A stretch of DNA of 64,000 nt from Schizochytrium sp. TIO01 (Eukaryota > Sar > Bigyra > Thraustochytrida > Thraustochytriidae), in the NCBI GenBank assembly GCA_004764695.1, contig SMSO01000037.1:2487837-2551836 (forward strand), written 5' to 3'. Below, in pieces: positions 10,589 through 57,126 of this stretch. Numbering within the stretch: position 1 is the stretch's first letter; each line of letters opens with the position of its first letter. The notes below the pieces were generated by a model that had not been told where the DNA came from, did not search any database, and was given only the letters and a program-made list of their open reading frames with translations. The position numbers and the translations under genes are program-made.

Positions 10589-12102
10589 ATGCCTCTCAGC
10601 GATGAGGTCTTCGATGGTACGTGAAGATGGACAGAGATGAGATTTAGTGCAAGGGACCTCTCTGCTCTATCTGCAAAAGCTGAGGTCCAACTTTGCGACC
10701 TCAAGTAGAATAGACAAAGGTTATATTTGGGCAATAAGGTATCAGACAGGAACTAACGCTGAAGGATATGTTCTTTCTCTAATTCGGCAACGATTACGCA
10801 TGATAACGAATCGGTACTTGGGTGTATACAGAAGGTGACAGCACATGGGTCCAGTTCTGGTCTTCACGTATTGACGGTCCCATCGTGGGCGAAGCCCGCT
10901 TTGATTTCATCAATATTCGCGAAATCAACATCAACACAAGTACTTTTCGCTCGTACGTTTTTCCTGTTGGTCTGTAGAAAATTGCATTTTGACATCTAAC
11001 CTTTTCTCTCTTCATATATATTTTCAGAAAACTTCTGGTGTACGTCCGCGTGAAAATGTCTGACCTTGGAATCACCAATGCAGACCGTGTGCCTCGTCCC
11101 AAGAACCCGCATTACATCCAAACATCCAATGGTCGCAAGATTTCAGAGTGGACACCCTGGGTTCAATTCCTTGGTGAAGTCTCTAAGCACACAGAGTGGG
11201 TCCGTGAACGTAATGGTAAGCTAACCTTTGCTTACGAATTTGACGGTACCTTTCCTCTGGGAGATCGCGGTGCATGGTTTCCCTTTGACTTTCATGAGCT
11301 CAAGGTCTCTATTACGAGCAACTGGGATGATACCAAGCTTGTTTTTGTACCCTGGGCTGACACCTCAATCGATCGTGTCAAGTGGCCTCCTGAGCTTGCA
11401 GTTGCCATGCTTGATCATGAAACTACACTGGTAGATTCCAAGTGTGGCCGTGTTCGTGACGAAGAGGTGGTTCTTACGCTTCGCAACAAATTTACATGGT
11501 ATAGCACGCCGAAAATCACCTTTTACAACTCTCAAGGTTTTAGTCGCTTTCGTTACAGTGAGGTAACAGGATCTGTTCTTGTGGATCGACGCGCTACTTT
11601 TGTACAACATGTCGTGTATGAGTTTATGCGCCCATTGCTTCTTGCTGTGCTTGCACCACTTTCTATTCTCTTCTTCTCTGATGAGTCAGCCCGCCTTAGC
11701 TATAACGTGTCTTTGCTCGTGGCAATGAGTCTTGCTTTTATGCGCAGTACTGGTGACCGTGTAACCTTCTCCGACTACTACAAGCTAGCAATGTTCTTGT
11801 ATGCTTCTATTGCACTCGTGCTTTCTTCCTTCTCCAACATTATTCCCGATCTCGATAACATTAACGTGCAATTAGGAGCCTGGGTGATATTTCTGATGTT
11901 CCATGCTCTCTTCTTATTTGCGTACCTTAATTACACATGGCGCTCTCGGTCTTTGCACAACAAGTTCCACTCCTCGAGCGAAACAACTTATGAGGTTGTC
12001 CATTCTAAGCTTATTGCACACCTAGAAAAGGAGGCAGCAGAACTTGGGGCAATCTCTGTGGATATGGAGGACAGTACTGCTCAGAGCAGCAACCTTAAGT
12101 AA
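10589..12102 (+). CDS. Pentameric ligand-gated ion channel homologue, three exons
   Basis: Predicted subunit of a plasma- or internal-membrane pentameric ligand-gated channel. Model: exons 10589-10616, 10832-10952 and 11028-12102, joining in phase to give 407 residues; both introns start GTACGT and end in AG. Seen: a beta-rich N-terminal half with the FPFD core motif of the family (about residues 134-137), then four hydrophobic segments at about 246-267, 270-289, 300-321 and 330-352. TM2-TM3 is linked by a DRVTFSDYY sequence typical of the gating loop. The positions normally held by the two Cys-loop cysteines are not cysteine, and the TM3-TM4 linker is only about ten residues, as in prokaryotic members. 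No signal peptide is visible from the chosen ATG (context ATCAAGATG). The frame stays open upstream to 10385 without another ATG, so an additional 5' exon with a signal peptide is possible. Ligand and ion selectivity cannot be read from the sequence. Confidence 0.8.
10617..10831 (+). other. Intron 1 of the channel gene
   Basis: A 215 bp GT-AG intron beginning GTACGTGAAG and ending TATACAG. It contains in-frame stops. Removing it joins a phase-1 exon end to the next exon as a GAA codon and keeps the frame open into the extracellular domain. Assigned by phase and sequence alone. Confidence 0.6.
10953..11027 (+). other. Intron 2 of the channel gene
   Basis: A 75 bp GT-AG intron beginning GTACGTTTTT with a pyrimidine-rich end TATATTTTCAG. 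Splicing gives the continuous beta-strand reading TFRS-KLLVYVRV expected at this point of the extracellular domain, so this junction is well supported. Confidence 0.82.
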
Positions 12103-12889: not shown

Positions 12890-14185
12890 TCATTTGGATG
12901 ATGGCGAGGGTTGCTTCCCTGCTGGTTGCTCAGTCGGAAAACTGCATATACTACGAATGTAGCCAAGTAGACCTCCATCCTCTCCTTCGGCACCTTGCGT
13001 AGTACTTCCGTCAGTGATGGCAGCATGCTCTAGTCTGCTCATCATAACGCCCCCCTTGCTGTTTGTGGAAGGCGTAGGCAGAGCAGCAATGGTAGATGTG
13101 ATGAATGCAGATGCCCCAGGCTCGTCAAAATCTGAAAATGAGTGAGATTTCACTTCTGCAAGAGCTGCACTAACAATCTTTGAGCTATCACGCAAAAGTA
13201 ACGTAATGGTCTTCTTCATTCCCTCTTCTATAGCATCAAGAGCTACGGCAGCCTTCTCGGCACCAAGCGCTTTTGGCAAGTCGAAGAACTGTTCGATATG
13301 AGCGATAGCCTCGGGCGACATTAAGTGCGACACCCGGGTCACATATTGATTCAGCATGTGTGTGTTCAGAACCTGGTTAACTGTCTGGTCAATCGCTACC
13401 ACGCGCGCTCCGGGTTTCTGTCTTTCGTCTACGATAATATTACCCCCATTGCCGTCTGATCGCCAGATCGTGGGTACGCGATCCGGATTGTTGATTATCA
13501 CATCAACAACAAGCATAGCTCCAATTATTTGCCAATCTTTTTCTGAAAGCGCGTCCGGGTCGCGCTGTGATAGTGGCAAGTCATCCAGGTCATGGCCAGG
13601 GATGAACTCCATAAGAACAGCACCAGATTCACGGAATCGTGGGCTATGAATCTCATTACATGTGCCGTGAACTGTCACAGGAACTTCACGCAGTGCCCAA
13701 ATTAAAGACTCAAGCTCGTCGTCCGCAAGTGGTCGCGTCTGTGGGCATGGGACACCTACTGCACGCAGGAGACCAGCCGCAAGAATTTCGTTTGGAAGAT
13801 CTTGAGTTTTTTGTTTAAGCACCACAACACCATTTTCCTCCTTCGCGAGTTTTATTAAAAAGCAACCAAAAGACCCAAGGCCAGCCTGAGCATGGTGGAT
13901 TCCTTCAACGTCTTCTTTCGTCCAGTCACGAGCATGCATAATATCTGCAGCTTGCCCTTGTCCCCAATCATAGGAGAAGAGCTCCTCCGGAACTTTCCTT
14001 GGCGGGACTTTTGCTGCCTCACGCTCATCAAGAATCTTTTGTACTCGGTCGACCTTGATTCTCCACATGAAATGGTCATCCGCAATGGTCCTCGTCAAAG
14101 CTTTCGCGTCTTTCTCCAAGTCATCATGTCCAGCGCAAGCTGCATCGACTGCTTTTCGCAGCTCCTCGTCGCTTGGCGCACTCAT
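12890..14185 (-). CDS. Actin-fragmin-kinase-like protein kinase
   Basis: 431 residues in one exon, ATG at 14185, stop at 12890. The protein resembles the catalytic domain of actin-fragmin kinase, the Physarum enzyme that phosphorylates actin and is structurally a protein kinase distantly related to the PI-kinase fold. Seen: glycine-rich nucleotide loop GLGSFGCF (102-109); VVLK with candidate ATP-binding Lys124; a Glu at 133; a hinge-like VLMEFIPG (190-197); a catalytic-loop-like DVIINNPDRVP (228-238) followed by GNGGNI (245-250); and a metal-binding AID (264-266). All catalytic positions appear intact. The first 70 residues are charged and helical, and the C-terminal 100 residues are low-complexity with no known domain; the kelch repeats of the Physarum enzyme are absent. 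Substrate is inferred only by family; other targets are possible. Confidence 0.78.
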   Translation of the reverse strand: MSAPSDEELRKAVDAACAGHDDLEKDAKALTRTIADDHFMWRIKVDRVQKILDEREAAKVPPRKVPEELFSYDWGQGQAADIMHARDWTKEDVEGIHHAQAGLGSFGCFLIKLAKEENGVVVLKQKTQDLPNEILAAGLLRAVGVPCPQTRPLADDELESLIWALREVPVTVHGTCNEIHSPRFRESGAVLMEFIPGHDLDDLPLSQRDPDALSEKDWQIIGAMLVVDVIINNPDRVPTIWRSDGNGGNIIVDERQKPGARVVAIDQTVNQVLNTHMLNQYVTRVSHLMSPEAIAHIEQFFDLPKALGAEKAAVALDAIEEGMKKTITLLLRDSSKIVSAALAEVKSHSFSDFDEPGASAFITSTIAALPTPSTNSKGGVMMSRLEHAAITDGSTTQGAEGEDGGLLGYIRSICSFPTEQPAGKQPSPSSK

Positions 14186-16637
14186 CCTTGCGAGACACTT
14201 TGAATCTATATCTGATGAGCGGCCCTTAGTTGTGGTATCACCTCCAGTCTTCTACGAGCCTGAATACCCGCGCAGACTTTATCTTTGTTGTGTTCGCAGT
14301 CCTTTTCTTCGTGCACGTGCTATATATTCTTTTGCCAGCATTTTGAGGGTCCCAGTCTAGGTCCCACTTTACAATGGGACCTTGCATTACATTTTGCAGT
14401 CCTAGGACCTTCTACACACGTGCTAGTCCATCTCCAACAAACCTGAAACTCAACCTGCTCTGTGTGAACAGTATAAATTGCATGATCATCAGTATTGTCC
14501 CAAAACGCCCCTTGAGATCTTGCAAGCCAAGGGTATCGTAGGGCGTACAGAGTAAAAGTAGATGAACTTGAGAAAGGTGATCAACGTTAATTGCTCGAGA
14601 GATTGCTTTGAGCCACTGTAGAGCCGGCACGCAATCCTTAGATGCCCTAGATGCATAAGCTCAGGTGGGTGAATGAATGGTGAAGTTCTCGGATAATTTG
14701 CTCTGCACTTGTTTGCTGATTGAACTTCACCTCGGTTATTGTATCCTCAGGCTGCTCAGACAATTGCTATCTAAAACTAAAATTACTTTTTCACAACCAG
14801 CCTCTCGTTTGTCAGATGCAGAACAAACACCTTGATTCTAAAGTCTAGGACTGTTATTTCCTAAATCAATTCAGGCATTAAATGCATGCACCATCTGCGC
14901 CAGCAAGCGTTCAAGTATTTTTTGATATTCCCTCGCCCACGGCGAGCTAGAAGTAGCATATGGTGCATAAACTGCGCGCACCCATCAGAAAAGAACTGGC
15001 GCTGCTTCACGAGTCATCATGATTATCATGATGCTGCACGTGCGAGCCTTTCATTAGAATTGGCAATCGAGACCGTGGTTATGAACCAGTGAGAGTAACA
15101 AGCAAGCCCTCCAAGCTGCCCCAGTGAACAAACAAGCGGCGAGCGAGTGAAGGCCCAACAGCTCCACTTACTGTTCTAAAAAAGAAACTAACTAAAATAC
15201 CCAAATATAACATCAAGGTGTCCATCACAGAATTGACTAAAGAAGAACACCATGCAAAGATGTAGCACATTACAAAGTTGAACCAGCACCACAAAAAGCA
15301 GTAGCCCCGACTGCCACGCATGGGTATATCCTACTCGACCTCAAGAAGCGGCGAGCCACATCTGCGGCGGCGATGATGATCTACTGATCAGATACTTGCA
15401 CTGCACACTAACTGATGAGGCCAGAAAACAAATAAGAACGCCCATCAGACAGAAAGATATCGCAATTTCGGGTGGTGCCAAACCCATCGCGAGAATAAGC
15501 CCAGTGGAGTCGAGCGTTTCGCTTGGAATTTCGCACCATTATTCTAACCTTCGATACTAAAAAAACAACATGATGGCTTAAACAAACAACTAGTAGTACC
15601 TAATAGTTTTGTTAGCTTATATCAGATAGCACTGCACGCGCTGGAAAGAAGCCGTAGTGTGTAACAGGCCACCACGTCGCACGGCTGAGATGAACCCGTA
15701 TGGGCGGCTAGCAATCGCGGTACTTGAGTGCACGTCACCAGTCAAGATGGCTGCCCCGCCTCGACCTTCTACAGCGTCAACACTATCATTGAAGCTTTTC
15801 AGAAATCACAACTCGATGAACGGGGCTGCTTTGTTTCAATGAATATTTTGTTCTTCCTTTCCCTGCACTTATACCTGTATCAATATCTACAGGGCATTCC
15901 TGGTTCTGCTCTCTGCACACCGCCTCCTTATGAGCCATAAGGAAACCCTCCCCTGGAGGCACACTACACTGCTCACAACCCCCATACTGTGTGCAATAAA
16001 AGCTGCTTGCGTGTATGGCCGTGAATTATACTAGTTTTGTACTAGGGAGGAGAAAAGAAAGTATCTGCTCTTAACATTGTCATAGAAGTAAAGGACTTGT
16101 GGGAGAATGTAAATGTTAAAGTAAAAGAATAACAATAAAAAGAAAAAAGGCGCCGCGTGCGCGTGCAAGCAAGAGCGGAGCTGAGATCGCCGTCAAGTTG
16201 GCTGCGGCTGAGGTGCCTGTGATGCTGTTTCATGCCAATGTATGGCGGTTTAGGTTTCTCAGTGAGAAGCAGTTTCGCGCTGGACGTGGCGGCGTTGCGA
16301 CTTACGCTAATGTTGTTTTGTTTTCTTTCTTAAGTGCGATGATGAGGCTGAGTGTAAGAAGCTAGAAAAAAAGAAAGAACGAAATACGGACTAATCATGA
16401 CTACTTCTGAGGCAATCATTATTAGTTTTTATTTATTTATTCATTCATTCATGAATTGATGAATTCAATCGATCGATCGATCGATCGATCTTAATTGATC
16501 TGTGGAACAAACTGCTTTCATCGAATCCTGAGCCAGCGAACGGCGCTGGGTCGCTGCGTCGATCGCCTGCCCGCTTCGCAGTTGGGTCAGCGGTACACGG
16601 ACTTGGTGTCAAGAACAACTGAGTGAGGTTAGGCAAG
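14186..16637. other. Divergent intergenic region
   Basis: 2.45 kb between the starts of the kinase-like gene and the T1-GTPase gene, so it should contain both promoters. No gene was supported. It holds an interrupted palindrome at 15015-15033 (CATCATGAT, one base, ATCATGATG) and, close to the T1-GTPase start, a compound microsatellite. No TATA or CCAAT element could be assigned with confidence. Confidence 0.55.
16429..16490. repeat. Compound (ATTT)(ATTC)(GATC) microsatellite
   Basis: Successive ATTT, ATTC and GATC tetranucleotide runs. The GATC run has about 5.5 copies (16468-16490). It ends about 150 bp before the start codon of the T1-GTPase gene and so may lie in its promoter or 5' UTR. 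Confidence 0.85.
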
Positions 16638-18341
16638 ATGAAGAGCTTTCTCGGCCTGGGCTCCAAGTCGCGCAAGTCTAAGGTGCCTGAGGCTACTGGC
16701 GACGACGTTCTTGTGCTCAATGTGGGCGGACATATCTTCATGACGACCAGAGCAACTCTGATGAATGCAGATGGGTCTAGATTAGAGCAAATGTTTATGG
16801 ACCTTGAGGCCGAAGGCCGCCTTCAGCGGGACTCGCATGGCCGAGTTTTCATCGATCGCGATGGTTCCCAATTTGGCGTCATTCTCAACTACTTGCGCGA
16901 CGGTGACGCTGACTTTCCTGACCCAGGTACCTTGGATTGGATCACCTTGCGTCGCGAAGTTGACTACTACGGTATCTTTAAGCTAGCGGATCGCATGGAC
17001 GAAATTGACGCTGACCTCGCTGCAGAGCGCGTGGAAAATGGGGACCATCAGGAAGCCGTCGATGTGCCGCCCCCGACTGATGATATGACAGAGGAGGAGC
17101 GTGCTGAGCGTCGTGAACTTGAGCATATTGCTAAGATGCGTGCACAGCTTGACGCCCGCGCCAAGGAAATCGAAAGGCGTCTCGCAGATACCTCTGATGG
17201 TGACCTCGATGAGCGTGCAAAGGACCTTCTTACCTTGGAGCTTCACAAGGTCCAACTAGAGGCTGAGCACAACAGCATTCGTGAGCGCGAACACGGACGT
17301 GAGCTGCGCTACAACTTGCTTATTGTTGGCACCAGCGGTAGTGGTAAGAGTTCTAGTTTGAACACTCTTCTGGATGAGCAGGCTTGTGTTGTCAGTGGTG
17401 CTCAAGCTCAAGGTACCCGTGGCACTGTACTCCGCGATGCCAAACTCGACAAGGATCACTTCGTGTCTTACATTGATACTCAGGGTCTCGGTGCGGATAC
17501 CAGTGTCTCTGACACTGATCTTTTGTCTCAGATTATGGTAGCTACAGAGAGTGTTTTGCAAATGGGAATTATTAACAACATTCTCATCAGTTTTGACGTC
17601 AACTCTCGCACAACACCGGCTATGATGGCCAATCAGCTCACCTTGATGGAACTTTTCTCCGAGCTTCGTCGCTCCTGTTTCCTCGTCTTCACTAAATGGA
17701 ACACCAATGCTGTTCAAGTAGAGTGGAACCAGCCCCTGCGCGAATGGGTTCGTCGCTGGAAACGCGCTGGATCCATTGAGGAGATCACTGAGGACCCGCC
17801 TACCTACGAAGATATGTACCGTGCCTTTTGCCAGTACGTAATTAGCGCTCTGGCTAACGAGATGGATGGTGGCGCATTTTCAAAGATGGGTACCTTTTTG
17901 GCCTTCTTTGAAGCCCGTATCCTCTTCATGTACAACCTTGATGGCATCCAGCTCGAGGACCGCGAGGAGGGTGTACTTGATCCTTATATCACCCGCCTTT
18001 ACACCTTCTACCGTGAAAAGGCTTTGGATACACTCGATCGCGGTTCTACTCGAATTGTTACAGAGGACCTTACCTTCCTTCGTGAAGACGAGGCCACCAT
18101 GCGCTCTGTTGCAGCTCAACTCATTCGCAACCGTGATGAGAAGATCTACCAGCTCGATATGGTTGGTCGCGAGGCCCAGAAGCGCCGCGAAATGAAGCGT
18201 ATCTTCAACAACATGGCTGTTGAGCACTCCAACCGCATTCGTGACCATGATTTCCGCGCCCGTTCTTCGTACACCAACAAGATTGCAGTTCTTGCCGGTT
18301 TTGTACGCACTGTTGCTACCGCTGGTTGCTCCATCATGTAG
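16638..18341 (+). CDS. KCTD/T1 BTB domain fused to AIG1-like GTPase with CaaX end
   Basis: 567 residues, one exon, ATG in context GGCAAGATG. Domains seen: residues 22-118 are a potassium-channel tetramerisation (T1/KCTD) BTB fold with LNVGG, TTRATL, FIDRDG and REVDYYG motifs; 150-222 is a charged helix likely to be a coiled coil; from about 225 there is a P-loop GTPase of the AIG1/septin-like group, with G1 GTSGSGKS (231-238), a threonine-containing G2 region near 260-263, G3 DTQG (280-283) and a G4-like TKWN (352-355). The C-terminus is CSIM, a good CaaX farnesylation signal. Family knowledge: T1 domains oligomerise or bind cullin-3, and AIG1 GTPases act on membranes. Inference: an oligomeric, prenylated membrane GTPase. 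Oddities: the fusion itself, and Asn instead of the usual Asp in G4. There is no channel pore. Confidence 0.85.
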   Translation: MKSFLGLGSKSRKSKVPEATGDDVLVLNVGGHIFMTTRATLMNADGSRLEQMFMDLEAEGRLQRDSHGRVFIDRDGSQFGVILNYLRDGDADFPDPGTLDWITLRREVDYYGIFKLADRMDEIDADLAAERVENGDHQEAVDVPPPTDDMTEEERAERRELEHIAKMRAQLDARAKEIERRLADTSDGDLDERAKDLLTLELHKVQLEAEHNSIREREHGRELRYNLLIVGTSGSGKSSSLNTLLDEQACVVSGAQAQGTRGTVLRDAKLDKDHFVSYIDTQGLGADTSVSDTDLLSQIMVATESVLQMGIINNILISFDVNSRTTPAMMANQLTLMELFSELRRSCFLVFTKWNTNAVQVEWNQPLREWVRRWKRAGSIEEITEDPPTYEDMYRAFCQYVISALANEMDGGAFSKMGTFLAFFEARILFMYNLDGIQLEDREEGVLDPYITRLYTFYREKALDTLDRGSTRIVTEDLTFLREDEATMRSVAAQLIRNRDEKIYQLDMVGREAQKRREMKRIFNNMAVEHSNRIRDHDFRARSSYTNKIAVLAGFVRTVATAGCSIM

Positions 18342-21017: not shown

Positions 21018-23349
21018 TTATTCGACAACAGGGGTCGGCGGGGCAACGAGTCCATTCTCTTCAAGCCACTGAGGGTTGTAGATCTTGGAGAGGTACTTAG
21101 CACCGAGATCGCAGAGGACAGTCACGATGACCTCCGGCTCGGTGCTGGTCTCAGCAAGGCGCACAGCTGCTGCGACGTTGAGGCCTGACGAGCCGCCACC
21201 ACATGCACCGGTGGTGCGAGCGAGCTTATGGCACATGTCAAAGGCCTCCTGATCGCCAATGCTGATAACGTCATCGACGACCGAGGTATCAAAGGAGCCT
21301 GGGATGTTTTGCTTACCGACGCCCTCGACGAGGAACTTGCCAGGCTCGGGACATGAGCCCGTGCGGAAGAAGCCAGCAAAAATGGAACCAATAGGGTCCG
21401 CAAGGACGGCGCGAATCTCTCCATTTTGCTCCTTAAGGAAGCGACCAGTGCCGGAGATGGTGCCACCAGTGGATCCACCGGCAACAAACGTTGTCACACG
21501 GCCCTTGGTCTGCTCAAAGATCTCGGGTCCAAGAGAAAAGTAGTACGCCTCGGCGTTCTCCTTGATATTGTACTGGTCGAAGTCGAAGTACTTCTCCGGC
21601 TCATCGCGTGCCAAATTGGCAGCCATGTTCATGTAAGATTGCGGATGGTCCTCACCGACTCCGTTCGGGGAGAGGCGGAGCTCTGCACCATATGCCTTGA
21701 TGTTTTGCATCTTTTCTAAGGAACACTTGGGTGAGGTGGTAATGATACACGGGTAGCCGCGCATAGCACACATCATCGCGCATGCAGCACCGGTGTTACC
21801 GCTTGAGGCAGGCGACAACTGTCATTCCGGGGCGAAGACGTCCGTCGCGTTCTGCCTTGTCAAGTACGTAGGCAACCATGCGGTCTTTCATTGAGAAGGA
21901 AGGGTTGAAGTACTCGACCTTTGCGTAGATGCGGGTTTCGGGGTGTCCGAGGTTCTCGCAAACGCTAGTGATCTCAATGAGCGGAGTGCTGCCCACGAGG
22001 TCCTTGTACAAACATGCGTCGCATGCCACGAGTTGGCGAGACGCCTTTGCGGTTGGGAACGAGCTGGAGTCCTCGGGGAGAAGGCCCTCGTCGGCGAGAC
22101 GGAGCCGAGCTTCCGGGGTGACAGGGGGCACGCCGAGGGGGCGGCCGAGTGCGATTTCGGGGGAGCACTTAAGGCCGTTGCTTTCGAGCCACTCAGGGTT
22201 GTAGACCTTGCTGAGGTTCTTGGGGCCACAGTCTGGCATGACAGTGCAAATAATTGCGTCTTCCTCGCAGTTTGCAGCGAGCTCGAGAGCAGCGAAGACG
22301 TTAAGGCCAGCGGATCCACCAGCACAGATGCCCTCAGTGCGAGCAAGGGCGTGGCAGGTACTGAAAGCCTGCTCGTCTGTGACAGGGAAGACCTCATCGA
22401 TGAGGTTCATGTCCATAGCACCAGGGATGGAGCCCTTGCCGACACCCTCAACAAGGAACTTGCCGGGGGTACCAAGCTTGCCGGTCTTGAAGTAGTTGGT
22501 AAAGACGGAGCCAACAGGGTCTGCGAGAATGACCTTGACCTCAGGCTTGTGCTCCTTAAGGTAACGTCCAACTCCACTCACAGTGCCTCCGGTGCTGCCG
22601 GCAGCTACGAAATGTGTAATGCCGCCGCTGGTTTGCTCCATAAGCTCAGGGCCAAGAGTCTTAAAGTGACCGGCCGGGTTGGATTGAGTATCGTATTGGT
22701 CCACATCGAAGTACTTTTCGGGGTTCTTCTCAGCGAGGAGGCGGGCGATTTCCATGTAGTGGTCGGGTTCGCCTTCCTTGGCACCGTCGGGAGAAACAAC
22801 AAGCTTTGCACCGTAGGCACGAATTGCGTTCATCTTTTCGTCACTGCATTTGGGCGAGGTTGTGATAATGCAAGGGTATCCACGCATTGCGCAGACCATA
22901 GCACATGAGGCGCCTGTGTTGCCACTCGAGGCGGCGACGACGGTCATTCCAGGTTTTAATCGGCCATCAGCCTCGGCCTCGTCAAAGATGTTCATGACAA
23001 TACGGTCCTTGATGGACAGGGAAGGGTTGAAGTATTCAACCTTGGCAAAAACACGGACGTTGGGGTTCTTGAACGAGCGTACGAGCTGCGTCAGCTCCAC
23101 GAGGGGGGTGTCGCCCATGAAATCGGCGTAGGTCTCTGTGGGGAGAGCAGCGTTGGGCGTCTCGGTTTCGGGGCTGGAGTAGAGTCCATTTGCACGGTGC
23201 GAGGGGAGATCGTACTCGGGCGAGCCAGCGCTTTTAAAGGTTGCCAGCTCAGGGTCCTGACGGCGGCGAACAGCCTTGGCCGCCTCGAGCTTGGAAGCCT
23301 GCTTGCGCACAGGCTTCTGGCTCGACGTGCTGCGTTGTTGCACGTTCAT
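21018..23349 (-). CDS. Tandem cysteine synthase/CBS-type PLP protein, frameshifted
   Basis: Two complete copies of the fold-type-II PLP enzyme domain of cysteine synthase and cystathionine beta-synthase (synthesis of cysteine or cystathionine from serine-derived substrates). From the ATG at 23349: copy 1 has GDTP (79-82), PLP lysine in SIKDR (K114), SGNTG (142-146), the GSTGGT phosphate loop (251-256) and CAGGSAG (342-348). Copy 2 has GSTP (453-456), SMKDR (K488), SGNTG, GSTGGT and GGGSSG. Copy 2 is broken near 21810 by one extra base just before SGNTG; the two halves then continue in different frames (23349 to about 21810, and about 21810 to 21018). With the base ignored both copies are catalytically complete, about 780 residues in all. 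An in-frame ATG at 23418 would add 23 residues, perhaps a targeting peptide. No CBS regulatory domain or haem-binding region is present. Confidence 0.85.
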
Positions 23350-24062
23350 TTTTTCTTCGCTTTCTTTTCCGTCGCAAATCACATGAAAGCAGAAGTTTGT
23401 GCGTGCAAATTGCATCATTTTGACAATTTATTCGTCACCATTTGATTTGAAGACAACGGAAGCATGTATAGCATAGTCACAAAAACATTCAAGCAAAACG
23501 CAAAGTTAGTCCTTCTGTGTCTTTCATGATCATCATCTCTATGCACCCAGTCAACTTTTTAAAAAGTCAAACATTGCCCGAACACCCCTCCGGAATCGAA
23601 CGAGCATTTGCATCCTTCTCCACGCCCTCCTTGACGTCCACCGCCGGCTCCATCTATATTATTGGCACAGTAACTACCTCTCATTGTTCCTAGTCCATTA
23701 CATAGCCAGAGAGCAATATAAAGGAAATAAATGAGCGATAAAAACTCTCAATTTTGAATCACCCCAAAGGCAAGCCACTGCGGCGTCGCTCCCAGCAGCC
23801 CGTGCGTCTAGCGGACGGGCGCGCGGGGCAGTAGGCAAGCATGAGTCAGAGGCGGTCGGGGTCCCCATTCGTCCCAGGGCGGCGTCACAGGCAGAGGTTG
23901 GGCATGCATCTCGAGCTCGAGCTTTTGCGGCACTCACGAGTTTCGCTCTCAGCGTCGGTCACGCGAAGCGGGTTTGCTGCCTCTCGAAGTCGTGCTCTTT
24001 CTTTCTTTTCAGTTCCTACCATTTACGGTAGACACTCTTACTTTGAATAATTTGAAATAAAA

Positions 24063-38055: not shown

Positions 38056-38767
38056 GAGTAATCTAAATTCTACCGGAATTCAACCACTTGGACACTTGGG
38101 AAACTTAAAACCTTTATTCAATTTTACCATTTTTGTGTAAATAATGCTGTAGATATTATAGACCTTCGCTCCACTATACAATTATACCTTTAGCAAAAAC
38201 TATAAAACCTGAACCATGGTTGCTTTGATCACCATAGGTGATGCATAAAACATTCTTGTAGATGGCAAAAATGCGTAACAATATCGACTAACAATTCCCA
38301 AGAGCACTAAATCTATCCTGCAAAATATTTCCCTTTCTACAGAGAAGCAGAGAAGGCCTGAAAAAATGTTCAATATGTATAGCCATGCAGTTAGCGCTGT
38401 GTGTCTTGTACCCCCGAGCGGATTGCATAACATACTCTATGTGCTATTTATCTGTATCAAGATGAATACGTTTCTCATCAATTTCGTAATTAACTGCTGG
38501 ACATCTGAGCGAGCACTACGTAATATGAGCGACTCTTCATAATAGTCATGTCATAAGTGTTCTGTTCTGTTCTTTATATCAATTGACCGTTTAGGACTCT
38601 CTGGGACTGCAGGAATTACTTTGCGTGTGCTCTGCGACATTGAGACAGCTTGCGTCTTACGTCGTGACAATACTTGAGCGAGCGCAACGTAATCCTCGCT
38701 TTGGTATGCTTATTTTGTGCAGTATTGGATACAGCGCTTTGTAATTACCGGTTTAGCAGAGACGCAA

Positions 38768-41700
38768 ATGTTTGCAAGACGGGCTCTTGCCAACAGCAGT
38801 GCGACACGGTCACGCGCGGACTCAGACGCTGCGTACAGTGCGGGCCCGCTCACGCTGTCCAGTGACGAGGATGAAGACGAAGACATGAAGTCACGGTCGA
38901 GGATGGCATCGGGATCCATGTTCTCAGCAGGCAGCTTCTTTAGCGGCGATGATGAAGATGAGTTCGATGAGAGCGATGACCATTACGACGATGGGAACGG
39001 TGACGGCAAGAACTCAAGCTTGAGGCAACGCTCTACAAGCACAAAGTCTTCAAAAACCCTGCAACCTAAATTTATTGATAAGCATTCGTCGGACTCCCAC
39101 TCCATCCCGTCGTCGAAATCCTCATCGTCTTCGCTCTCTTCACACAGGACCGCCAAGACTGATGGCAACAAGAGTGATACTAGCAGCTCCAGCGAACCCG
39201 GTGATAACGATAGCGATGAAAAAGAACAGTCAAACAGTGACACAGATGATAATGAAAACCATGAGAAACAACAAGGCTCTATCGACAAGCTTGCAAGCGA
39301 GATCTGCAAAACATTACGCGAGCAAGCACGCAATGGTGATGACGTTATGCGGCTGATCAAGGTTCGCTTCGAGAGTTTAGATCGTGACCGCAAAGGCTTT
39401 ATCAATGCAGAGGAATTTCGACAACTGATCGCAGCTGTTCTTGGTGGACGAGCGATTTCTTCGGATAACGCAGCAGACCTTCTCAAGCGCTTTAAAGCTG
39501 ACACTGATAAAAATGGGCATGTATCTTATGACGAGTTTGTCAGCTTTGTATCCTTGGACCGTCATGCCATTGCAAACATGGCTAACAAGCTGCGGCGTGC
39601 TTTACATAATCTCTTGCGTAAAGATGAAACTGGTTCTGTAGCGGACCTCTTTGGGCGCTTCTGCGACGCGCGACGCAACGCAATCGGTACAACAGAATTC
39701 CAAAACATTGCGCGAGTTGTGAAGGTTGGTGCAGAGGTTCTAACTGCAGGTGAACTTGAAGGACTTATGCGATATTTAGACCGCCAAGGCAAAGGCTTCA
39801 TTGACATTTCTGATTTTCAATTATTTATCGAGGACCCAAGTAAAACAAAATCAAGATCAAAATCGGTTGGTATGGATGAAGAGGAAACGAAAGACACAGA
39901 AGAAGACGCTGCTGCAGCTCATGTCGTAGTCGATGTTCGCCTTGCAATTCATGGACAATCCAAAAAGCGCAAGGAAGAACAGGAAGCCCTACTTGCTCAG
40001 GGATACACCCGCTTAGCTTCCAACCTCAATGACCGGGGACGTGGTTACCCACTACACTTGTTTGTAAAAAGAGCTAACAGCAAGGTCTTTGCAGATGAAG
40101 ACGCCTTTCAACGAGCAAGAGTGACAGATATTGCCCTTTCACGCTCCAGCAAGGATGCCTCCATGCTTGCTCTTGGTTATCAGTGCGTTGAACCGTACAG
40201 TGTAAATGAAGGCGCATGGTTTACGCGAACTCAGTATTTGTGGATTCGCCGTAATGCTGAAGATCCACACCCAATTCTTGATATTGCTGTGACAGCTGGA
40301 CGAAAGCGTGACCTTGCCAGCAAACTTTGGACTCCACCTTTTCGTGGATACAAAAGAATAGAGGGGGATCTTAATGCAGGAAATCGCGGATCGCAAGTTT
40401 TCCTTTGGTATTTCAAAGACCAGCTAAATCAAGATGAGGGTCCGTTTGCTCAGATGGCGCGTATATGTCGCAGCAAGCTCCGTGCACTGGCCGACAAGCA
40501 AGAAATTAACCTTGATAAGCTTTGGGAACAGTATGACAAACGTGATAAAGGCTACATTCCTCGCGCGAAAGTACGCTACCTCATCACTCAGGACGTTGGA
40601 ATTAAGCTTGAGAAGACAGATTTAAGTAAAGTGCTTGACCTACTAGATGTTAATCGTGATGGTCGGATTGACCGAGACGAGTTTATGGAATTTCTTGCAT
40701 TCAACCCTGCTGAGGTAGATCGTCTCATGGTCAAAATCTATGAAGCGTTAGTTCAACGTGATCTAGCAGGGTCTAGAAGTGCTATCAAACGGTGGTTTCT
40801 TTCTTCTGCTTCAGAAAGTGGATCAGCGGCTACTGCAGAGTACAAATCCCTTGAAGATACTGCACGAAGCCATGGTCGGCGCGCATCTGCCGCTAGTAAG
40901 ATCCAGACTACTTCGAAATCACCCAAGGAGATGTCCCGTGCTCTGAAAAAGATTGGTATCAAACTCGCACCTGAGGAACTCAAGACAATTATGGGAAGGT
41001 TTGACAAAAGTGGCGATGGTCTTGTAGATGCAAAAGAGTTCGTTGACGCAATCCTCCTTTGCGCAAAACGTGTAAAGGTCACAAAGGCTCAACAAGAAGA
41101 AGAAGGTGATGCAGCTGCCAAAACCTATGTGAATGTTGAATTGGCTGCACGTAAACTTCGATCTTACGCACGCAATCTAGCTGGGCCTGATTTAGATATG
41201 AGCCGCGCCTGTGATGGCCTACTTGGGGGCGGTGATAAGGATCGACTTACACGCGACCGTGTCCGAGAAATACTGCAAAGTGAACTTAAACTAGATTTGT
41301 CAGACAAGGAAATAGCGATGCTTCTCTTACGCACAGGAACTTCAAGAACAAAAGTAACAGACTTTTGCACATGCTCAACGTACCTAGATGCAGTTTTGAA
41401 CCGTGTTGTCGATGCTGCTCTCAATGTAGAAATCCATCGATTTTTTAGGCAACTTGATAGCGCTGGACAAGGCCGTCTATCGCGTGTTGATTTCGCCAAC
41501 GGCTTGAAGAACTTGGAGCTAGATGGACAACACATCCAGCTGAGTCCAAAGGAGGTCAATCAAATTGTACAACGATTTGATCAAGATGGCGATGGCTTTG
41601 TAGACCTCGATGAATTTCTCCAGTTTATTCAAAGCGCTGAGCGTGCTCGTCGGGCAGCTCGTGATGCTCTATTGGATGAAGAGGAACGTAAACTTGACGA

Positions 41701-44700
41701 TGCACGTGTAGTCTACGTATTCTCTGCCTTACGCAAACTGCATGTTGCAAGCATGCACTCTGTCGATCAGCTATTCGCCAAATTTTGTGATAACCCAGAT
41801 CGTCAAACTTTTTCACTTGACGGGCTGGAGCGTGGCTTGCAACGTCTTGGACTAGTTCCCCAAGAGGTCCAGCTTTCAGCTGCGCAGTTTCAACAAGTCT
41901 TCCGTAGGCTTGATCTTGCCGGCATTGGGGTAGTTAACAAGCGACAGTTTGAGCGATTCCTCACACGACGACAACAAGGCAATAAGAGTGGAGGAGCTGA
42001 CCTCATGTCCCCCCAAGTGCCACTTTCAAGGCGTCTTCGTTCGACGCTAAAACCAGTAGTGCGATCAGCTGAAGCCACGTTTCATGAGATCGATATCCGC
42101 GGTACAGGGAGAGTATTAGCAAAGGCATTTATTCAAGTGTTGCAAGGGTTAGAGATTCCATCTCGGGATGCTCAAACTTTAGCCAAAGCGTTTCCCTCAG
42201 AGAATGCAACTGATGCAGTAGACTATGAGGCCTTCTTTGCATGGACAGATCAGCGTCATCAATCCCCAAATGGCCGCAAACGATCCCCCAGATCAAGCCC
42301 AACCTCTGGGGATGATTACGCCAGTTCTTTTGATCGTGGCGAGGCTTCAGAGTCCCGAGCGGTGCGCCTACTGCGTCGAGGATTTGGGTCAAAGGCACGC
42401 TTAATGGCAGCGCTGAAATCATACAGTGAGGGTTCCGATGGACGTCTTTCACGAAATAGTGTTAATGAAATGCTAGATGATGCCGGGCTGGGTAGATTGT
42501 CTTATAGAGATTGGCATGAACTTGGAGCTTCTTCGGCACGAGAGTTATGTGCAGAGGTGTTTTCAACGCGTCGAGGTGGAAGGTCTCCTCGACGCCATCG
42601 CGGTCGCCATTCACGGAGGTCACCACATTCAGCTTCATATTACAGCTCAAGCGAAGATGACAAAGGTGATGCTGGGGATTTAGGCAATAACGAGGATGAC
42701 GAAGAGGACGATGAAGAAGCAAACTTGCTGGCAGAAGCATCCTTAGCCCGAGATTACGTAGCACGATGTTTGCGTGAAGCAATGCGAAAAGAAAACTTCT
42801 CGTGGGAGCCTGCTGTAAGGTTGTTTGATCATGACGGCTCCGGCGCAATTCGACTTCGAGACATGTCTCGTGTTTTGCGTTCAATTGGATGCCGACTTCC
42901 ACTCACTAAATTACGAAGCGTAGCGCACGTCCTTGCAGCAGTGCGTGATGGCGGCCAACGTGTCAACTACGAGCACTTTTTCGCGCGGATTTTGGAATCA
43001 GCAAGCGAGGCTGCGAATGGAGGTAGTCCCTTGCATCGCGGACGGACACTTGGAGAGTCTCATGAAGTTGTCCCATCATTTGCACAAGTCGAAGCAAAGA
43101 TTCGTAACGCCTTGCGCGCCGAAGGCTTCGCAGAGGGCTTAGATTTGGACGACGAGTTAGCTCGGCTTGATCGGAATGGAAACGGACGCGTGTCAGCCGT
43201 AGAGCTGGCAAGAGCCCTACCACGACTCCTGGGTGGCGTAGAACTTTCTCCTGGGGAGCTCCAGGCAATTATTGATCAGTACGATCATAATGAAAATGGA
43301 CAGATCGAGCTTGCCGAGTTCAGTGAGCTGATTGAGCTAAAGGACGCCGACATTGACGAACTCGTGGTACGTGTGAAAGAGGAACTCCGTAAGCAAGCAC
43401 GCTTAGGCACGCAACTCATTGAGCACTTTGAACAGTATGATGTGCATGGAGATGGCCAATTGAGCCGACGTGAGTTTCGTAAATGTTTAGACCAACTCTT
43501 ACCGCCAGGTCGCCGACTAGGGAACCGCGAGGTTCGTCGACTGATGGATCGCTTTGATCAAGGTCATCATGGTCGCGTAAATTACCAGGCGTTTTGCGAG
43601 ATTTGCAACCCAACAGAAATCGAGATGCTAGCGTTAGAAGCCAAAGTGCGCGAAAAGGTTCGCGGCATCGCGCGGCAATCTCAATCAGATCCCGTTGATT
43701 TGAGGCGTGCATTCAAGCTTTTTGATGCAAGCGGGAATGGGAAAATCTCGCGTCGCGAGTTTAAACAAGCATGTGATCGACTTGGATTATCATTGTCAGA
43801 GGATGAATTAGAGCTATTGCTCAAGCGATTCGACACTAACGGAAACGGCACAGTGGACTATTTTGAGTTCTGCCGTTTCATTGAGTATGATGGTGCCGAG
43901 GTGGAAGACCTTGTCGTACGTGCTGGGCGCCACCTAGACAATCTGCAGCGTGAGCAGCGGGATGTTGTGCAGGCGTTTGCTATTCTCGAAGGCCGGCGGC
44001 GCCCCGTAGGTATTTTGCCTCGTCACGGATTTTACCGTGGCTGCCGCGATCTTCACATGCCATTTTCGGATGCAGAAATCTCGGCGCTTGCTGATCTTTA
44101 TTCAGATAGTGGCAGTGTCAAATATCGTGACTTTGTGCTTTCAAGTCTCGCTCGTGCTGGCGCAAGATACCTTGGTGCTCTCGCATCATCTGTCAATGGC
44201 GCCTCGGGATTCCCATTCGCAGTGGATGCTCCGTCAGCTGTAGCGCCAAACTCCACAAACGCAGACCATGTTTGGAACCCAAGTTCTGTGCAAGCATGGC
44301 TGTCCTCACAAGCTACGCTTGACCAAAAGCGCAAGTTCGAGCATTTACATCAAGCAATGGCTCGCACATATATGCCCCCAGGTGCACACCCAAACAGTGC
44401 GTCTCTTGGTCCGCTCCACAGTATGTCCCAGGTCAGCAGTGACCTTAGTGATGAGGAAAATCTTGGGCAAGCTTCACAGCGCCACTCTCAAAATCGTCGG
44501 CAGCAGAATCATCGCCATGGCGAGGCTCCTCGGCACGTCAAGGGGACAATTCACAACACCCCTGCGTTTGCGGTACCAAAGGATCGTTGGGATTGCCCTG
44601 TTTGTTTTTATAAGCAAGCTCGTGGTGGTCGTCTAACTTGTGAGATGTGTGATAGTCCGTGTCCTACTCCACAGACTACACAAGGTGGACATTGGCCGCA

Positions 44701-45034
44701 CGTGAAACCTATTTTCGACGAGGCGTACAAGCATCTAGGTTCTGTGCCAGCAGGTGTTAGCCTCGCAGTGGTGCCTGCACTAGATTTAGGTCAGGCGACA
44801 ACCTCTAAAGCCTCAACTTCGAGGCAGCCTAAGAAGGCCCCCATTTGGCACCTTGCTTCAAGTATAGACTCACCGCGTAGCTTTGGGGATGAGGATGGGG
44901 AAAGTGCTCGGGAGAGTGGCGGTCGGCACCGTCGGAGTCCACGGAGTTCTCCACGCTCTCGTGGGTCGGACTCTCGCTCCAGATCTCCTCGCACTGCTGC
45001 CTCCAACTCGCCAAGATCTTCTCGATATTACTGA
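38768..45034 (+). CDS. Giant multi-EF-hand protein with MABP-like region and RanBP2 zinc finger
   Basis: 2088 residues from the first ATG at 38768 in one exon; the frame is open further up to a GTG at 38717, so a 5' exon is possible. Order: an acidic, serine-rich N-terminus (1-190); EF-hands from about 205, the first two with canonical loops (DRDRKGFINAEE, DTDKNGHVSYDE); a region at about 385-551 with two MABP-like beta repeats (GYTRLASNLN and GYKRIEGDLN, each followed by a hydrophobic strand); then further EF-hands to about 1700. About 18 EF-hand-like units can be counted, about ten with intact calcium-binding positions and the rest degenerate. Near 1941-1968 lies a RanBP2-type zinc finger (W, then Cys pairs in WDCPVC and CEMC). 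The end is arginine/serine-rich. Likely a calcium sensor or scaffold; MABP regions bind membranes and RanBP2 fingers bind ubiquitin or RNA. Specific function is unknown. Confidence 0.85.
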   Translation: MFARRALANSSATRSRADSDAAYSAGPLTLSSDEDEDEDMKSRSRMASGSMFSAGSFFSGDDEDEFDESDDHYDDGNGDGKNSSLRQRSTSTKSSKTLQPKFIDKHSSDSHSIPSSKSSSSSLSSHRTAKTDGNKSDTSSSSEPGDNDSDEKEQSNSDTDDNENHEKQQGSIDKLASEICKTLREQARNGDDVMRLIKVRFESLDRDRKGFINAEEFRQLIAAVLGGRAISSDNAADLLKRFKADTDKNGHVSYDEFVSFVSLDRHAIANMANKLRRALHNLLRKDETGSVADLFGRFCDARRNAIGTTEFQNIARVVKVGAEVLTAGELEGLMRYLDRQGKGFIDISDFQLFIEDPSKTKSRSKSVGMDEEETKDTEEDAAAAHVVVDVRLAIHGQSKKRKEEQEALLAQGYTRLASNLNDRGRGYPLHLFVKRANSKVFADEDAFQRARVTDIALSRSSKDASMLALGYQCVEPYSVNEGAWFTRTQYLWIRRNAEDPHPILDIAVTAGRKRDLASKLWTPPFRGYKRIEGDLNAGNRGSQVFLWYFKDQLNQDEGPFAQMARICRSKLRALADKQEINLDKLWEQYDKRDKGYIPRAKVRYLITQDVGIKLEKTDLSKVLDLLDVNRDGRIDRDEFMEFLAFNPAEVDRLMVKIYEALVQRDLAGSRSAIKRWFLSSASESGSAATAEYKSLEDTARSHGRRASAASKIQTTSKSPKEMSRALKKIGIKLAPEELKTIMGRFDKSGDGLVDAKEFVDAILLCAKRVKVTKAQQEEEGDAAAKTYVNVELAARKLRSYARNLAGPDLDMSRACDGLLGGGDKDRLTRDRVREILQSELKLDLSDKEIAMLLLRTGTSRTKVTDFCTCSTYLDAVLNRVVDAALNVEIHRFFRQLDSAGQGRLSRVDFANGLKNLELDGQHIQLSPKEVNQIVQRFDQDGDGFVDLDEFLQFIQSAERARRAARDALLDEEERKLDDARVVYVFSALRKLHVASMHSVDQLFAKFCDNPDRQTFSLDGLERGLQRLGLVPQEVQLSAAQFQQVFRRLDLAGIGVVNKRQFERFLTRRQQGNKSGGADLMSPQVPLSRRLRSTLKPVVRSAEATFHEIDIRGTGRVLAKAFIQVLQGLEIPSRDAQTLAKAFPSENATDAVDYEAFFAWTDQRHQSPNGRKRSPRSSPTSGDDYASSFDRGEASESRAVRLLRRGFGSKARLMAALKSYSEGSDGRLSRNSVNEMLDDAGLGRLSYRDWHELGASSARELCAEVFSTRRGGRSPRRHRGRHSRRSPHSASYYSSSEDDKGDAGDLGNNEDDEEDDEEANLLAEASLARDYVARCLREAMRKENFSWEPAVRLFDHDGSGAIRLRDMSRVLRSIGCRLPLTKLRSVAHVLAAVRDGGQRVNYEHFFARILESASEAANGGSPLHRGRTLGESHEVVPSFAQVEAKIRNALRAEGFAEGLDLDDELARLDRNGNGRVSAVELARALPRLLGGVELSPGELQAIIDQYDHNENGQIELAEFSELIELKDADIDELVVRVKEELRKQARLGTQLIEHFEQYDVHGDGQLSRREFRKCLDQLLPPGRRLGNREVRRLMDRFDQGHHGRVNYQAFCEICNPTEIEMLALEAKVREKVRGIARQSQSDPVDLRRAFKLFDASGNGKISRREFKQACDRLGLSLSEDELELLLKRFDTNGNGTVDYFEFCRFIEYDGAEVEDLVVRAGRHLDNLQREQRDVVQAFAILEGRRRPVGILPRHGFYRGCRDLHMPFSDAEISALADLYSDSGSVKYRDFVLSSLARAGARYLGALASSVNGASGFPFAVDAPSAVAPNSTNADHVWNPSSVQAWLSSQATLDQKRKFEHLHQAMARTYMPPGAHPNSASLGPLHSMSQVSSDLSDEENLGQASQRHSQNRRQQNHRHGEAPRHVKGTIHNTPAFAVPKDRWDCPVCFYKQARGGRLTCEMCDSPCPTPQTTQGGHWPHVKPIFDEAYKHLGSVPAGVSLAVVPALDLGQATTSKASTSRQPKKAPIWHLASSIDSPRSFGDEDGESARESGGRHRRSPRSSPRSRGSDSRSRSPRTAASNSPRSSRYY

Positions 45035-54262: not shown

Positions 54263-54810
54263 CGGCAAAAGCATAATTGCCCTGTGGACGGAGTGACTTC
54301 TGGCGTTGAGAGAGTGATCCCCTGCGCCACCCCCCCCCCTTCCCTCCCTCGTCTGCCGAACTCTTATATCGAGGAGTGCTACGCGTCCTCGCTAACTGGG
54401 TCTCCCTCAAAGAGGCCGAGCCTGGCCATCAGCTCTTCCCTGCTTTTACTTATCCTTGTTCTTCGGATTACCTCTTTCTTCTCATATTCTCATAGCCTTC
54501 CTCGATTCTTTCGAGAGGCGCACAACAAACTCCAAACTCCAGACTCGTACTGAAGTACAAACTAGGCACAAACGGAACGCGCCATCTCGGACAGTCGCAA
54601 CTCACGCGCCCTGTTCTGAGTAGAAATTCCTCCACGAGAAGACAGCTTGGTTTCTGTGGATCGACCTGAGTCTCTCTCACTGTGGACAGTACAACCACTA
54701 TACAAGCTTCACTTACTCGGAGCTCGAGATTTGCTTGCGTGGAGCCGTAAGCAAATCTCTGAGAGCAAACAAACAGTTGGCGCTCTGGAGGTATCAAAGC
54801 CACAGTTCCC

Positions 54811-54855
54811 ATGGATACAGCTCTCATGGACACAGCTCTCATGGACACAGCTCTG
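54811..54855 (+). repeat. 15 bp start-codon tandem repeat (x3)
   Basis: Three copies of ATG-GAY-ACA-GCT-CTN form the first 15 codons of the RING-Tubby gene and give MDTAL three times. All three ATGs are in frame, so the start could be at 54811, 54826 or 54841. Confidence 0.92.
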
Positions 54856-57126
54856 AGCGTTGTGCCGGAGTCCGGCGAGGAGTCTGGTGACGAGGGCGCC
54901 ACCGGTGCACAGGCTGCCGCCTTAAACCAATCCTCCAGGACATCCGCGACTACTGATGTTGCCACTCCTGTTCGTAAAAGCGCATGTCCGGCAGCATCCT
55001 CGTCGTCTTCCTCGCTTGGCCCCGAACTCGTGAGCGCTACTGCCTCTTCGTGGCCATCCCCGTTCTCAGGATCATCAATATCTGCGTCCAATCCCGCATC
55101 AGGCAACACCGCAACACCCCCTAGAACTCGCTCAAAGGCTCTGAAATCACGAACAGTGTCCGACGCACCAGAAACTTCGCGTCGTCGGTCTAACTTTGAC
55201 TATTTAGACACAGTTCGCTTTGCCACAATTCATAAGCCACCTCCAGGTTCCACAGCTTCATCATCCTTCACCGGGTCATTTTCTGGTGCACGCGAGGAGC
55301 ACCACCCAGGCATGCGTCAACGCACAGGGAGCATTACCTTGAGCATGCTCACGCGAAGTGACAATTCTAGCTGGCTTGATAGGTTTCGAGATAGATCCTC
55401 TAGCAATACTGATTCAGGTCTGTTCGGCGGAAGTTCCGCTTCATCTGGCTCATTTAGTGCTAGACGCCCTATTCTGGGTAGTCGCCGTGATAGTAGTGTC
55501 CATGCTGTGGATCTTGGTGTACTTGAGAGTATGCGCTTGCAAGCAGAACAGCTCCAGCAGCAGGATCAACAAGATACCCCAGAAGTTCAGGAGGAAGCAC
55601 AGCCTCCTTCTCAGCAGCTCCAGCATACCTTGCAATCACGTGTTTCAAGCGAACCACAATTAACAGGAGCAGGTCCTGCACTGGCGAGCGAAGATCTTGA
55701 GGATGAGGGCTGCCTGATTTGCCTCGGAAAATTCACGGAAAAGAGGCCCTCAGTGCCTATTCCGTGTCTGAAACATTGTAATTTAGCCCCTGTGCATGCA
55801 AAATGCATATACGAATGGAAGGAGCAGAAAAAGGGGGCTGGAACTTGCCCTTTGTGCAGATCAGAGCTGGGCTACATTGATTACCAACCTCCTGATTTGC
55901 TCAAGCTAAACTCGTTGGTGATCTTCGGATACCGCAAACAATTCGCTATGTCTCCTCTCCCTAAGGAAGCTGGCATGCTTCGTTGTTATGTCAAGCTTCG
56001 CAACGGCGTTTTTGGCTCACCAGTGCATTATGAACTATGGGTCCAGGCCCCGACTACGTTGGCGTATCCTCTTGGAGCACTTCCTGATCAAGAGAGTCCT
56101 CGTAAGGGTGATCGATTCTTGATGGCAGGCCAGAAACGACTCACGGCCTGGGGTACCTCTGTGATCGATTTCACACTAGACCCAAACGCGAAGGACTTCA
56201 ATTCAAATAGCTATAACTACATTGGCAGCGTGAGTGGAAATTTTGCTGGTACCGAATTCACTGTCAATGCTCCTTATAAAGAAGGACGCTACACAAAGCA
56301 ACGAGAGCTTGCTAGCATTGCATATGCACAGAACCGCCTTGTGGGCAGTACCTTTGGCCCAAGACACCTCACATGTGCGCTTGCAAAGGCCAAGGCCTGG
56401 GATGGCTCTGCCACTTCAAATCCTAACCTTGGGCTACCACTCCCAAGCTCAATTCCCACCAGTGTTTCATCAACGTCGTCTACAGCTACGTTGATGAGCG
56501 GTGGTGCAAGCCCTAATCCTGCAAGCAATGTTGCGCCTCTTGACATTCCATCCCCATCTACGGATGACCGCCAAAGATCTTCATCTGCTCAAACTATCAC
56601 TAGCAGTCCTGCTATGGGATCTCCAGTGGGCTTTGAGGCAGCACACGAGGCTCCGCAACTTGTCGCAGACAAGAATGGAGCTTCCACTGCTGCGCAATAC
56701 AATGTCGACGACGACGACGATGACGATGACGACTATGAAATTCCAACTCAGACCTATATGACTGATGCAATCATTCCTAAACAACGGAACGATCACATCA
56801 TAAACTACCTTCGTAAAGGACCTGAAGCTGTCAACAATCACGAGAAGCTTGTGTATGGGCAAAACAAAGACCCGTACTGGCTCGATGCCATCCAGGCTTA
56901 CTCTCTTGACTTTCGGGGTCGCGTGCAAAGACCCTCAAACAAAAACTTTCAGCTTGAGCTAGAGGGTCTCCAGAAGTCAGTATCATTGCAGTTTGGAAAA
57001 GTTGTGGCCATCGACGAGCATTGCCCCTTCGCAATCTACACATGCGACTTCCAGTGGCCACTGTCACCAATTCAGGCCTTTGGAATTGTCACAACCGCCT
57101 GTGATCGAAAGATGTTTGTGGCGTAA
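54811..57126 (+). CDS. RING-finger/Tubby-domain fusion protein
   Basis: 771 residues, one exon. Residues 1-300 are serine-rich and low-complexity, probably disordered. At 301-349 there is a RING-type zinc finger: GCLIC, a PCLKHC group, VHAKC and CPLC, spacing C-x3-C-x5-H-x2-C in the middle, closest to the RING-CH (C4HC3) type of E3 ubiquitin ligases. From about 371 to the C-terminus is a Tubby domain: MLRCYVKLRNG, a DRFLMAGQK strand, NYIGSVSGNFAGTEF (the tubby core strand), then LDFRGRV, KNFQLE, LQFGKV and the final QAFGIV helix. About 150 residues of Ser/Thr-rich sequence with nine consecutive Asp (633-641) are inserted inside the Tubby domain (about 541-690). Tubby domains bind phosphoinositides, so a membrane-tethered ubiquitin ligase is inferred. 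Full-length Tubby motifs suggest it is functional. Confidence 0.86.
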   Translation: MDTALMDTALMDTALSVVPESGEESGDEGATGAQAAALNQSSRTSATTDVATPVRKSACPAASSSSSSLGPELVSATASSWPSPFSGSSISASNPASGNTATPPRTRSKALKSRTVSDAPETSRRRSNFDYLDTVRFATIHKPPPGSTASSSFTGSFSGAREEHHPGMRQRTGSITLSMLTRSDNSSWLDRFRDRSSSNTDSGLFGGSSASSGSFSARRPILGSRRDSSVHAVDLGVLESMRLQAEQLQQQDQQDTPEVQEEAQPPSQQLQHTLQSRVSSEPQLTGAGPALASEDLEDEGCLICLGKFTEKRPSVPIPCLKHCNLAPVHAKCIYEWKEQKKGAGTCPLCRSELGYIDYQPPDLLKLNSLVIFGYRKQFAMSPLPKEAGMLRCYVKLRNGVFGSPVHYELWVQAPTTLAYPLGALPDQESPRKGDRFLMAGQKRLTAWGTSVIDFTLDPNAKDFNSNSYNYIGSVSGNFAGTEFTVNAPYKEGRYTKQRELASIAYAQNRLVGSTFGPRHLTCALAKAKAWDGSATSNPNLGLPLPSSIPTSVSSTSSTATLMSGGASPNPASNVAPLDIPSPSTDDRQRSSSAQTITSSPAMGSPVGFEAAHEAPQLVADKNGASTAAQYNVDDDDDDDDDYEIPTQTYMTDAIIPKQRNDHIINYLRKGPEAVNNHEKLVYGQNKDPYWLDAIQAYSLDFRGRVQRPSNKNFQLELEGLQKSVSLQFGKVVAIDEHCPFAIYTCDFQWPLSPIQAFGIVTTACDRKMFVA

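Follow-up and report, generated by a model that had tools for sequence, protein, structure and literature searches.

RhoBTB, the known fusion of a GTPase with a BTB domain, carries a Rho-type GTPase first, followed by BTBs of non-KCTD type. To our knowledge, no human KCTD protein contains a GTPase domain or a CaaX box, Toc33/Toc34 and septins contain neither a BTB nor a CaaX box, and SpoIVA has neither a BTB nor a lipid anchor. Among the GTPases, Arg fingers are described as a common feature of paraseptins (PMC11238149), GIMAP2 is reported to form dimers induced by GTP and, when overexpressed, to be located on lipid droplets (PMC8201404), and Arabidopsis AIG1/IAN8 has been described as prenylated (PMC6866125). 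Among the BTBs, the β1-β2 hairpin is given as the oligomer interface common to KCTDs, which form tetramers or pentamers (PMC5664961), and a review of Cullin3 classes RhoBTB1 among adaptor proteins (PMC8201781). SpoIVA, a derivative of the TRAFAC GTPases, is described as a bacterial ATPase with NSxR in G4 (PMC7952092).

The protein examined here is encoded in a 64,000-nucleotide stretch of the genome of Schizochytrium sp. TIO01 (the window) and has paralogs elsewhere in that genome. This family shares with GIMAP/AIG1 (IAN) proteins an AIG1 core scoring above the Pfam cut-off and, by prediction, C-terminal membrane attachment but differs from them in its N-terminal BTB, in TKWN at G4, and in the region following the GTPase. 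Toc-type chains head the PDB matches of the family profile, although mainly G1 to G3 is covered and septins match weakly. As in KCTD16, KCTD9, and KCTD7, a BTB_2/T1-type BTB lies at the N terminus, but the C-terminal half of the window protein has no match in Pfam or the PDB to KCTD C-terminal domains. RhoBTB has the opposite domain order, and its two domain types belong to families other than those found here. G4 is altered in SpoIVA, as it is in this family.

The sequences indicate that a KCTD-type BTB, a GTPase, and a lipid-anchor signal are combined in one protein and that this protein belongs to a real small family and is no chance join. For both KCTD-BTB and paraseptin-type GTPases this is a new domain order, with a predicted lipid anchor in addition. 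We know of no described protein with the BTB-AIG1 GTPase order, and no description of it was found among the open-license literature matches listed; the main text of a KCTD review has no mention of GTPase, fused, protist, prenyl, or non-metazoan. Our preferred reading, to which we assign a probability of roughly 45%, is that the BTB assembles farnesylated GTPases of the septin/GIMAP/Toc34 (paraseptin) type into oligomers that act as a membrane scaffold or tether.

Reading frame, domains, and paralogs

The first-pass annotation claimed a single uninterrupted frame for a BTB and a GTPase joined by a charged helix. The frame is indeed open (Table 1); measured from stop to stop it starts at 16623, and its start codon is the first in-frame ATG past the upstream stop. 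When the bases of the 64-kb window were shuffled 300 times, the longest stop-free run obtained on one strand had 318 codons, and in two paralogs, too, both domains share a single frame; a frame of 567 residues is therefore not attributable to chance. The conserved-domain search that had been proposed was run with Pfam and placed BTB_2 (61.5 bits; cut-off, 21.4) and AIG1 (33.2 bits; cut-off, 27) both above their cut-offs.

Table 1. Features of the BTB-GTPase gene (positions in the window) and the basis of each assignment
Feature	Position	Strand	Basis
Whole coding sequence, 567 aa + stop	16638..18341	+	ATG to TAG; layout common to two paralogs, each in one frame
KCTD/T1-type BTB domain, residues 26-116	16713..16985	+	Pfam BTB_2, E 1e-16; PDB KCTD16, KCTD9, KCTD7
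Charged linker, residues 150-222, predicted helical	17085..17303	+	Composition (49% charged); low-confidence helices 152-183 and 190-218
AIG1/Toc34-like GTPase core, residues 226-354	17313..17699	+	Pfam AIG1, E 4.3e-8; Toc-type chains lead in PDB; Der has similar score
G1 P-loop GTSGSGKSS, residues 231-239	17328..17354	+	Sequence, family alignment
G2 candidate GTRG, residues 259-262	17412..17423	+	Invariant in 5/5 family members; putative G2
G3 DTQGL, residues 280-284	17475..17489	+	Sequence, family alignment
G4 position TKWNTN, residues 352-357	17691..17708	+	Asn replaces canonical Asp; TKWN in 5/5 members
Family-specific region, residues 373-540, predicted helical	17754..18257	+	Conserved in family; helices in low-confidence model
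Terminal hydrophobic stretch, residues 546-563	18273..18326	+	Directly before CaaX; helix 546-564 in low-confidence model
CaaX box CSIM, residues 564-567, predicted farnesylation site	18327..18338	+	Sequence; CVIQ and CSIS at the same end of the two other fusions

A search of the whole genome (64.06 Mb in 37 contigs, with introns disregarded) found four family members besides the window copy. P0002 (contig C24) and P0003 (C6) have a BTB followed by a GTPase in one frame, as in the window protein, while P0004 and P0005 have no BTB match and P0005 also lacks the CaaX box, so that neither part is required in every member. GTPase identity is 54 to 68% among the three fusions and 54 to 71% when P0004 is added; the GTPase of P0005 is only 34 to 41% identical to those of the other members. 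A tree of the five GTPases has no supported forks.

That the frame is an artefact, i.e., an assembly chimera or two genes read as one, is regarded as extremely improbable. The same domain order occurs on contigs C36, C24, and C6, each time in an uninterrupted frame with BTB_2 above the cut-off and a GTPase match, and a chance or chimeric join of 16638-18341 was rejected on that ground. In protein-guided alignments, agreement at codon positions 1 and 2 exceeded that at position 3 in every part of the gene, and strongly so in the GTPase (0.67/0.79/0.36 and 0.67/0.79/0.42 for positions 1/2/3). Over the BTB the values (0.49/0.59/0.35 and 0.50/0.59/0.29) are only slightly above those for the same stretch of the BTB-less P0004 (0.47/0.46/0.24); the codon test thus adds little for the BTB and linker, where it is not decisive against an artefact.

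Both BTB-less paralogs show further irregularities. P0004 (L003:274-2740, contig C36, copy C36b) has a GTPase that shares 71% identity with the window GTPase core, and its frame is broken twice near the 3′ end, as would result from recent pseudogenization or from an error in the sequence. Near that end, a different frame yields CNLM and then a stop, which is a hint only, as the paralog's own frame is broken. P0005 (L005:760-2418, contig C32) is divergent, carries Arg where the P-loop normally has Lys, and ends early without a CaaX box; its N terminus, MGTTWCC, resembles a signal for myristoylation and palmitoylation.

The assignment of the BTB to the T1/KCTD type was borne out: in addition to its BTB_2 score, the solved BTBs closest to it in the PDB are all from KCTDs. 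BTB_2 scores of P0002 (45.0 bits) and P0003 (32.7 bits) also exceed the cut-off, and N28, G30, G31, T36, T37, D73, and D75 are invariant in an alignment of the three fusion BTBs. These BTBs are otherwise only 25 to 30% identical to each other (32 to 34% in the columns that align with the window copy). They are three of eight BTB_2 matches in the genome. The tree of the eight did not resolve, and a single clade of the three fusion BTBs was not rejected (p-AU, 0.295). The window BTB is 41% identical to C13a, a BTB that stands alone, and thus closer to it than to its fused paralogs, so BTB gain may have occurred repeatedly. A single gain, several gains, or loss in P0004 may each account for the BTB history, and the tree does not separate them. 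A separate KCTD9-like frame (L021, contig C24, at about 5526083) has a BTB followed by what appear by eye to be pentapeptide-like repeats.

The proposed AIG1-like identity of the GTPase is supported, although its subtype is defined less sharply than that of the BTB. AIG1 is the top Pfam GTPase family above its cut-off, ahead of MMR_HSR1 (28.3 bits; cut-off, 21.9), and Toc chains come first in the profile search; on these grounds we call the domain AIG1/Toc34-like. The subtype is blurred, however, by the NCBIfam Der profile, which scores similarly to AIG1 (E 4.7e-8, 32.5 bits), although far below its own cut-off of 306.7, and by the PDB search with the window protein alone, in which the best solved GTPase was MnmE (E 0.00034), followed by chain T7I23.11 (0.004), which we take to be Toc33. 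With a profile of the five members, T7I23.11 led (2.3e-5), followed by Toc90/120 (2.4e-4), the GTP-binding protein of entry 5owv (0.0019), and Toc34 (0.0048); septins (0.015 and worse) and GIMAP4 (0.064) matched more weakly. The clear G1 and G3 motifs named in the first-pass annotation are present. Structure models were poor, with a mean pLDDT of 38.3 for the full-length protein and 45.0 for the GTPase core alone.

Among the paralogs, P0002 (31.0 bits) and P0004 (39.5 bits) exceed the AIG1 cut-off of 27; P0003 falls below it at 24.8 bits (28.9 with neighbors) and passes that of MMR_HSR1 at 27.3, and P0005 has no Pfam AIG1 match at E 0.1. At E 0.001 the genome has six AIG1 matches, namely, the three fusions, one BTB-less paralog, L012, and L016. 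The L016 match lies below the cut-off and by eye looks like a ribosome-biogenesis GTPase. L012 (L012:1015-3390, contig C30), a long frame of 1106 aa, encodes another AIG1-type GTPase; it has no TKWN and falls outside the family.

Proposed oligomerization and membrane anchor, and the Cul3 alternative

The linker was described as a charged helix, and this is supported by its composition (47 to 49% charged residues) and by predicted helices in the low-confidence model. A coiled coil was considered for the linker and rejected, as the heptad count gave no clear phase. For residues 373-540, after the GTPase, no Pfam match is listed, although the region is conserved in the family. The first-pass annotation overlooked this region, the paralogs, and the CaaX box at the C terminus: Cys at position −4, Ile at −2, and M, Q, or S as the last residue occur in all three fusions. 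M, Q, or S at the final CaaX position favors farnesyl transfer. Two frames of the genome contain prenyltransferase alpha-subunit repeats (PPTA), which are found also in Rab prenyltransferase, at scores above the cut-off.

Two mechanisms had been suggested, forced oligomerization of a GTPase or a GTP-gated cullin adaptor, and the former appears to be the better of the two. It fits the retention of the BTB hairpin residues, as we infer that the conserved N.GG....TT residues of the fusion BTBs sit in the β1-β2 hairpin, and it fits the membrane-anchor box. The N-terminal KCTD-type BTB would place each molecule in a ring or tetramer, from which the charged linker would project the GTPase, and the complex would be held on a membrane by the C-terminal Cys, farnesylated as the CaaX box predicts, together with the hydrophobic end stretch. 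Nucleotide-dependent pairing of the GTPases, as in GIMAP2, could then cross-link preformed BTB oligomers, either into a membrane coat or so as to join two membranes. The outcome would be a multivalent scaffold or tether under nucleotide control. Confidence in this reading is lowered by the GTPase subtype, for which Der, MnmE, and weak septin and GIMAP4 matches leave no sharp assignment. If the oligomer reading is right, assembly (by the BTB) is separated from switching (by the GTPase), jobs that are merged in septins and GIMAPs.

In the second mechanism, the BTB would recruit CUL3, the GTPase or the C-terminal region would pick substrates, and nucleotide would gate the complex, in a manner resembling RhoBTB. 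The genome encodes a possible partner: among five cullin matches, four of which are near full length, L025 is of CUL3 type (621 bits to Cullin-3 and 480 to Cullin-4B). Every KCTD BTB tested except that of KCTD16 is reported to have bound Cul3 (PMC5664961). The α2-β3 loop spacing of the window BTB, 43, lies among those of the binders KCTD5 (42) and KCTD9 (43), with KCTD10 at 39. However, the nearest solved BTB is that of the nonbinder KCTD16, whose spacing is 44, so the measure does not discriminate for the window copy. In P0003 the spacing is 39, and in P0002 it is 56, an insertion in the Cul3-contact loop; long loops are reported to block Cul3 binding in KCTD8 and KCTD16 (PMC10856315). Moreover, the fusion BTBs have diverged far more than the GTPases (25 to 30% versus 54 to 68% identity), and two of the five members have no BTB match. 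A partner cullin is thus present, but the divergent BTBs, the loop insertion, and the BTB-less members count against an adaptor role, which we do not favor and consider quite improbable.

The G4 motif and nucleotide specificity

TKWN, another feature overlooked in the first-pass annotation, stands at the guanine-specificity motif G4 in all five members found in the genome. Its register as G4 is supported by the extents of three profile matches: AIG1 extends to W354, the MMR_HSR1 match of P0004 stops at residue 607 with the motif at 608, and the Der match spans the motif. GIMAPs carry Asp at the G4 position; the canonical Asp is absent from all five members, and the family is therefore called AIG1-like and not filed as GIMAP. 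A DNA pattern for TKWN-x-N matched nine places in the genome, five of them in the family, and a reversed control pattern matched two. The remaining four were rejected as other TKWN genes, as they lie in short, non-gene stop-free frames of 13, 22, 35, and 114 residues.

These observations raise an alternative that is compatible with a scaffold or tether, namely, that a GTPase fold with Asn in G4 is no ordinary GTP switch but accepts a different base (xanthine or adenine), or more than one nucleotide, and serves as a membrane-bound nucleotide sensor or structural NTPase, for which SpoIVA offers a comparison. Besides the presence of TKWN in every member and the share of the family among the pattern matches, published precedents point in this direction. 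A shift toward xanthine is reported for Ras, EF-Tu, and FtsY after Asp-to-Asn changes, and in the GD1 domain of EngA the same change gave XTPase activity exceeding GTPase activity (PMC7952092, PMC3466195); the ATPase SpoIVA reportedly derives from a GTPase via changes in G4 and G5 (PMC7952092). Conversely, EngA GD2 with this change is reported to have kept ∼80% of its GTPase activity with no reversal of preference (PMC3466195), the Lys of TKxD is retained here, G1 and G3 appear intact in four of the five members, and other residues could read guanine. No G5 residue was identified. On balance, we regard altered nucleotide specificity as unlikely.

Asn in G4 could also mean weak nucleotide binding. 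A more elaborate proposal, that a BTB-oligomer membrane scaffold with farnesylated septin-like arms has Asn fixed in G4 and responds to a non-GTP nucleotide (xanthine or relaxed specificity), we would rate a long shot. If the non-GTP reading were true, the family would be nature's equivalent of the engineered Asp-to-Asn switch, and TKWN offers a direct and cheap test of whether nature used the change that has been introduced into GTPases in the laboratory.

Searches for relatives and other genes in the window

The collections searched for relatives are prokaryotic and viral, where a eukaryotic family would not be expected, and say nothing of other protists. Strict peptide patterns, in two scans of viral_contigs and two of genome_contigs, picked out 183, 24, 96, and 32 stretches, none of which was confirmed by tblastn, a search that distant relatives could escape, and plasmids and phages gave no tblastn match at E 0.001. 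Matches in PHROGs and PADLOC were weak, with best E values of 0.0011 and 0.0043, respectively.

Several other frames of the window carry recognizable domains. On the minus strand, 21018-23427 encodes two pyridoxal-phosphate (PALP) domains in tandem, spread over two overlapping frames, with a frame change near 21796-21821 that splits the second domain, and 12890-14251 encodes 453 aa that match the catalytic domain of actin-fragmin kinase (56.8 bits). On the plus strand, the 369-aa product of 10993-12102 has no Pfam match at E 0.001 and four weak PDB matches (E 0.037 to 0.044), all to acetylcholine receptor subunits, and it is possibly a Cys-loop-like channel. Also on the plus strand, 54763-57126 encodes, in one frame, a Tubby domain together with a RING-like finger (zf-RING_2 slightly below the cut-off), and 38693-45034 encodes 2113 aa in a single frame with many EF-hands.
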